A stretch of DNA of 64,000 nt, from NCBI GenBank assembly GCA_026874595.1, contig CM049316.1:64215176-64279175 (forward strand). The letters run 5' to 3'. The notes beneath the pieces are model-generated. The model saw nothing but the letters and a program-made list of their open reading frames with translations. It was not told the origin of the DNA and made no database searches. Shown here piece after piece: positions 30,006-59,826 of the stretch (position 1 is the stretch's first letter; the number at the start of each line of letters is the position of its first letter). The stretch is from Sipunculus nudus (lineage: Eukaryota > Annelida > Sipuncula > Golfingiida > Sipunculidae). Both the position numbers and the translations under genes were made by a program.

Positions 30006-30885
30006 ATGCCGGAGCTAGTTGCAAAAGGGACGACAGATACTGTCCCTTCTCTAAGAAAAAGACCCGGGCCCCAAAACGGTCACGTGACCAACGGCGCAAC
30101 CAATGGGATCGGCGCAGGCACAGGGCCAATCACAGCCATTCCCGCCAGATCAGATAACCAGGTACACCTGATCACGGTGAATCCACAAACCAAGGAACTC
30201 ACTAATGGAAAAGTACTCAAGACAGAGGAAGGTAAATTTGGCTCTAATTATAATTCTTAAAATCAATATTTGTGAATGCTGAAAACAAAACGACGTCATA
30301 TATTTAAGAAAACTTTATATATTGTAATAGTCTTTTAATTGTAACTGTATATATAATGAATGTGTAATTCATTCTCGAAATCATTTTTTTAAAGATATTT
30401 GTGAATGCTACAATGAAAAAAAAAAAAAAGCTGAAAACAAAACAACATAACACCTGTTTGTCTTATACTGTAACTTTTAATAATTGTGTGATAATTTACA
30501 TTTTAACAAAATTTTACATTATAACTATTATTCACCGGCAAATATACAGATATATTTCAAACACATGTCCTATATTCATTTCATATGTATGTATAATGCA
30601 ACATTTGATAACATATGCACTACAGCCACTATATTAACACCAACAACCACGCACGTGTAACAGACCACGGGTATCATTTCAGGTAAGTATCCCAGTGCAG
30701 AAACCTTAAAGTATGAAGCTTTATATGGCGAAACTAAACACAAAGTAGAAGTCCAAAACGGTACAACCCTCAAGAACGGCAGGACTCAGGACAAAATCAT
30801 TAACGCCTCAACCGACCGCACAACGATGGTTGACGGAACAACTCTCAGTGGACAAATACAGGAAGAAAGTCCGGATGACATAGTC
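30006..30885 (+). CDS. FASN: FAS N-terminal extension (residues 1-139)
   Basis: Exon 1 and the first two-thirds of exon 2 encode about 139 residues before the KS fold starts at [15 protein letters not shown]. The extension is rich in Asn, Thr, Gly and Lys (for example [15 protein letters not shown]) and has no recognisable domain or signal peptide. Mammalian FAS starts almost directly at the KS, so this is extra. The exon 1 donor (GTAAAT) and the exon 2 acceptor (ATCATTTCAG) keep the frame. If translation starts instead at Met124 (30826), most of it would be leader. Confidence 0.6.

Positions 30886-59826: not shown

Follow-up and report, generated by a model that had tools for sequence, protein, structure and literature searches.

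A 29-exon gene of Sipunculus nudus that probably encodes an animal cytosolic type I fatty acid synthase

Introduction

The question raised by this locus is whether a long, many-exon gene, at positions 30006..59826 of the window (the whole 64,000-nucleotide stretch of Sipunculus nudus DNA analysed here), encodes a fatty acid synthase (FAS) or one of the animal FAS-like polyketide synthases (AFPKs). The excerpts of PMC7280274 drawn on here describe the two as frequently mixed up in annotation. Molluscs and arthropods are both reported, in excerpts of PMC10764717, to possess AFPKs; those of arthropods have a FAS-like domain architecture, TE included, and animal FASs are placed closest to arthropod ar-clades 2 and 3. 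The best explanation, to which we would assign a probability of roughly 0.87, is that the locus is an intact nuclear gene for a cytosolic type I FAS of the ordinary animal kind, within a family already known. Support for FAS comes from the gene structure, the domain order, the catalytic residues and a similarity to mammalian FAS that exceeds the similarity to sacoglossan AFPKs.

Gene structure

Exons were sought with a Viterbi model combining codon bias and generic splice matrices. Its codon scores were learnt from 23 fragments chosen for their FAS-like look, the start was confined to positions below 31000 and the stop to positions below 60000, and only GT-AG introns were admitted, so that the finder is partly dependent on the prior reading of this DNA. 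Within that dependence, the re-modelled gene agrees with the initial annotation: 29 exons, all on the plus strand, with identical outer ends (30006-59826). Four exons (11, 15, 16 and 23) were then amended by homology, reading the DNA around the junctions. The start of exon 11 moved from 39655 to 39598, the end of exon 15 from 43880 to 43896 and the end of exon 23 from 51726 to 51549; the finder's exon 16 (44977-45228), whose splice scores are poor, was dropped, the homologous stretch 44676-44806 filling the space between the flanking exons. The amended stretches can be aligned to the human or the pig FAS.

The refined model comprises 29 exons and a CDS of 7548 nt encoding 2515 amino acids, close to the 2518 or so first proposed, with a single stop, which is terminal. 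Introns are GT-AG in 28 of 28 cases and the phase is consistent at all 28 junctions, as had been claimed; because the finder admits GT-AG only, the former count means that a consistent solution exists and is no independent check on each junction. On the evidence of the sequence, the informative point is that in-phase junctions exist and that the corrected exons align to human or pig FAS, not the GT-AG borders per se. Read in its other two frames, the joined CDS has 144 and 134 stops. G+C content is 49% in the CDS versus 33% in the introns, and the observed/expected ratio of CpG is 0.79 and 0.93, respectively; by the usual norms these ratios speak against vertebrate DNA. Matches to solved FAS structures reach E values of about 1e-164 for KS (in a draft join of the exons) and about 1e-247 for ER-KR-ACP, values at which chance similarity to FAS is excluded.

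Confidence in the model is lowest for the start codon: the frame of exon 1 is open upstream to 29919, with in-frame ATGs ahead of 30006. The modelled ATG is immediately preceded by TATAG (29990-30005), so that a 5'UTR intron may end there.

Domains and catalytic residues

Exon 1 (30006..30231), with the modelled start ATG, encodes an N-terminal extension, the remainder of which shares exon 2 (30683..30997) with the start of KS; the Pfam match to KS runs from residue 140. KS continues through exons 3 (31527..31679), 4 (32867..33040), 5 (34123..34323, with the catalytic Cys299 in DTACSSS), 6 (34675..34797) and 7 (35392..36065), the last of which carries His431, His469 and the KS C-terminal extension. 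MAT occupies exons 8 (36703..36933), 9 (37424..37613, with Ser720 in GHSVGE, and Arg745), 10 (38266..38495, with His822) and, for its C-terminal part, 11 (39598..39902). A linker and DH, with His1018, lie in exon 12 (40373..40755), and DH extends over exons 13 (41674..41919, with GYEYGAHF) and 14 (42464..42640, with Asp1167 in DxxxQ). Exon 15 (43017..43896) covers the pseudo-methyltransferase region and the start of the pseudo-KR, to which exon 16 (44676..44806), missed by the finder and recovered by homology, also belongs. ER spans exons 17 (45965..46156), 18 (46994..47088), 19 (47565..47922, with the nucleotide-binding GSGGVGQ), 20 (48743..48865) and 21 (49352..49575). KR is encoded by exons 22 (50400..50750, with GGLGGFG) and 23 (51303..51549, with Lys2016, Ser2043, Tyr2056 and Asn2060) and ends in exon 24 (52471..52713), where ACP starts; ACP Ser2178 (GLDSLM), a linker and the start of TE share exon 25 (53664..53981). 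The rest of TE is found in exons 26 (55054..55172), 27 (56266..56535, with Ser2320 and Asp2347), 28 (57902..58150) and 29 (59707..59826, with His2491 and the stop codon). Exon 27 has a second in-frame 3' splice site at 56233, the use of which (56233-56265) would add 11 residues to TE; these resemble the human stretch AAYYIDCIRQ.

Pfam finds KS, MAT, DH, pseudo-KR, ER, KR, ACP and TE, in that order on one chain, in keeping with the eight FAS modules initially claimed. Matches above cut-off cover both KS parts, the KS C-terminal extension, the acyl transferase, the first DH model, the FAS pseudo-KR, ER (two zinc-dehydrogenase models), KR, the phosphopantetheine site and the thioesterase; the second DH model (PS-DH) falls under its cut-off. 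The predicted protein has no Pfam match to a methyltransferase, and the pseudo-ME region is visible by weak homology only, at 17 to 21 bits against mammals (barely similar). Among NCBIfam matches, all 22 for KS-MAT and the 25 listed of the 42 for ER-KR-ACP are below cut-off.

The residues taken to be catalytic in this family were positioned by alignment to human FAS. In that alignment KS Cys-His-His, MAT Ser-Arg-His, DH His and Asp, KR Lys-Ser-Tyr-Asn, ACP Ser, TE Ser-Asp-His and the glycine motifs of ER and KR are all kept, so the claim of intact catalytic residues holds for those tested. The spacings described earlier were recovered exactly, at 132 and 170 residues for KS C299-H431-H469 and 25 and 102 for MAT S720-R745-H822. 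The MAT motif GHSVGE is at residue 718, and the ER motif GSGGVGQ is intact. Judged from these residues, the product is apparently an active FAS.

What follows on dimer formation, substrates and product length, like expression and activity, is inferred from what is established for FASs in general. The product would act as a homodimer, MAT loading acetyl and malonyl groups onto ACP and KS carrying out the condensation, after which KR would reduce, DH dehydrate and ER reduce; the cycle would be repeated about seven times before TE released a C16-C18 acid.

Relation to FAS-like polyketide synthases

The AFPKs compared were the sacoglossan EcPKS1 and EcPKS2, and these and Drosophila FASN1 were compared by bit scores alone. 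Mammalian FAS scores above both EcPKS proteins in all five regions scored with the window protein. For KS (draft join) human, pig and mouse FAS give 551, 548 and 546 bits versus 428 for EcPKS2 and 414 for EcPKS1; a further 429 bits, to 7zma, were set aside as a sum over two KS modules (two stretches). A 106-residue KS segment is near even, at 117 (pig), 111 (human), 108.2 (mouse), 107.5 (EcPKS2) and 96 bits (EcPKS1). Separation from EcPKS1 is weak for MAT (human 418 versus EcPKS1 399 and EcPKS2 371). For DH, human FAS gives 211 bits versus 154 for EcPKS2 (query residues 1-307) and 150 for EcPKS1 (13-307). The pseudo-ME/pseudo-KR region gives 81 bits with pig, 60 with Drosophila, 49 with EcPKS1 and 40 with EcPKS2, and ER-KR-ACP gives 827 with pig, 818 with human, 689 with Drosophila FASN1 (over a shorter stretch, to query residue 586), 540 with EcPKS1 and 474 with EcPKS2. 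In the reverse check, with human FAS as query, EcPKS1 scores 462 over KS and 622 over ER-KR-ACP, and the human-window scores are higher (551 and 818).

Drosophila FASN1 outscores the EcPKS proteins over ER-KR but not over DH, where its 134 bits, below both, come from a shorter stretch (query residues 69-307) beginning where the FASN1 chain begins. Over ER-KR the human-Drosophila FASN1 pair gives 760 bits, compared with 689 for window-Drosophila FASN1 and 746-748 for window-human. Against EcPKS1 over ER-KR-ACP, the window protein (540) falls below human FAS (622) by a margin similar in size to that seen with Drosophila FASN1. These scores, with EcPKS1 as the fourth member, would fit a somewhat faster window lineage, and are compatible both with a place within the FAS clade and with one at the base of it.

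According to excerpts of PMC7280274, EcPKS1 and EcPKS2 are without a TE and without key residues of the ER NADPH site, and EcPKS1 has a MAT motif, GHSMGE, linked to methylmalonate. The window protein has the TE Ser-Asp-His triad, the GSGGVGQ motif and, in MAT, GHSVGE.

Relatives sought in genome and viral contigs

An alignment search of genome contigs with KS gave 114 stretches, of which 13 were relatives; every one of the 13 has a bacterial title, and no animal contaminant was among them. Viral contigs yielded no relatives among 8 pattern-matching stretches for the N-terminal/KS protein and 68 for the ER-KR-ACP alignment. The KS tree, rooted at its midpoint, was built from the window protein, human FAS and 11 bacterial KSs, with no AFPK; two of the 13 bacterial loci were left out (L011, which has in-frame stops, and L013). 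The window and human sequences stand apart from the 11 bacterial KSs (100/99), with end branches of 0.45 and 0.48, respectively; the branch of bacterial locus L012 is very long. This tree argues only against a recent bacterial origin and has no bearing on AFPKs.

Surroundings of the gene

Both flanks bear repeats, among them a retroelement relic, tandem and dispersed repeats and TA tracts. The relic, at 16433-17227 on the minus strand, matches RNase H-like (E 5.7e-10) and reverse transcriptase (E 4.3e-13) models in separate open frames, and is presumably of the Ty3 type. A dispersed repeat (18021-18375 and 60235-60593), 77% identical and in the same orientation, flanks the gene on both sides; two copies of about 163 bases in inverted orientation, 97.5% identical, lie at 10101-10263 and 10590-10752; and long tandem duplications at 1013-1361, 2377-3100 and 62209-62583 have units of 173, 368 and about 190 bases that are 92-100% alike. 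Intron 25 contains a minisatellite with a 31-base unit (54503-54694). Repeat-like stretches rich in G runs, with open frames that read as poly-glycine, occur at 27220-27529 on the minus strand and at 51581-51764 on the plus strand, the latter within intron 23; the finder had wrongly run exon 23 into it. The window has no match to a tRNA or to Rfam. No second gene was seen among ten frames (77 to 132 aa, from 59 and 21 listed) scanned against Pfam; two of the ten match reverse transcriptase models, and beyond these there are just two hits, both below cut-off.

Weighing the explanations

Several observations stand against a FAS: the ER-KR distance to Drosophila FASN1, the order of the DH scores, the weak separation from EcPKS1 over MAT, the near-even 106-residue KS segment, the TE identity of 29% and the motif GYEYGAHF. 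One rival is an AFPK resembling those of ar-clade 2 or 3 in arthropods, with the same domain order and a TE, sister to FAS and serving branched or cuticular lipids instead of bulk fat. Such proteins retain TE and stand very close to FAS in the account excerpted from PMC10764717, and the ER-KR scores, which suit the inside and the base of the FAS clade alike, would accommodate one, as would the position of Drosophila FASN1 under EcPKS1 and EcPKS2 over DH. With KS 56% identical to that of human FAS, an end branch (0.45) not longer than the human one (0.48) and a GHSVGE motif that gives no sign of methylmalonate use, we nevertheless consider it unlikely. Slightly less probable again is a paralogue, other than the housekeeping FAS, that has a TE and joins the FAS clade at its base, like ar-clade 2; it would be specialised for branched or surface lipids and its alternative in-frame exon 27 would alter the thioesterase.

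A polyketide-making AFPK of the molluscan kind, like EcPKS1 and EcPKS2, would share the homology seen over KS, MAT, DH, pseudo-KR and ER-KR-ACP. It is disfavoured by the KS and ER-KR-ACP pairwise scores, which favour mammalian FAS and, over ER-KR, Drosophila FASN1; the EcPKS scores lie under those of mammalian FAS in five of five regions, and TE and an intact ER motif are present here and absent from EcPKS1 and EcPKS2 as described in the excerpted source, all of which makes this explanation very improbable. The initial annotation had itself raised the FAS-like polyketide synthase alternative, and the pairwise scores, the sole basis of comparison here, disfavour its sacoglossan form and suit a place inside the FAS clade as well as one at its root. 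That a pseudogene or a chimeric assembly should look so complete is hardly credible: exon boundaries were in part chosen by homology and the gene is known from genomic DNA alone, but 2515 codons run without an in-frame stop, 28 of 28 junctions are in phase and the catalytic residues are kept. The reading as a complete animal type I FAS is supported, with domains, residues and scores above EcPKS1 and EcPKS2 in agreement.

The result is a good gene model without surprise, which leaves knowledge of FAS unchanged. Its value is mainly that of a clean positive control, in which 29 exons over 30 kb were read correctly from raw sequence, and, given the confusion of FASs and AFPKs in annotation noted in the excerpts of PMC7280274, a complete model with its TE, ER and MAT motifs is useful.

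Comparison with known systems

The arthropod AFPKs of ar-clades 1-4 resemble the window protein in having the FAS domain order with TE, a likeness taken from their description in excerpts of PMC10764717. EcPKS1 and EcPKS2 are homologous to it over KS, MAT, DH, pseudo-KR and ER-KR-ACP and differ in their lower scores and in TE and the intact ER motif, which only the window protein has by the excerpted account. Drosophila FASN1 (6fn6, the modifying region) is homologous over DH, pseudo-ME/pseudo-KR and ER-KR, and over about the same ER-KR stretch its 689 bits compare with 746-748 for human FAS.

Among the systems compared, the closest likeness is to the vertebrate cytosolic FASs (human 8vf7, 9b7z and 9b80; pig 2vz8), with which the window protein shares domain order, catalytic residues and KS and MAT spacing. 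Identity to human FAS is 56% in KS (255/452), 52% in MAT (180/348), 39% in DH (117/297), 58% in ER-KR-ACP (386/661; 60% with pig 2vz8) and 29% in TE (77/267), from which strong purifying selection seems plausible. The window protein differs in the DH motif, GYEYGAHF versus human GYDYGPHF (the GYxYGPxF motif), and in some 138 additional N-terminal residues ahead of KS.
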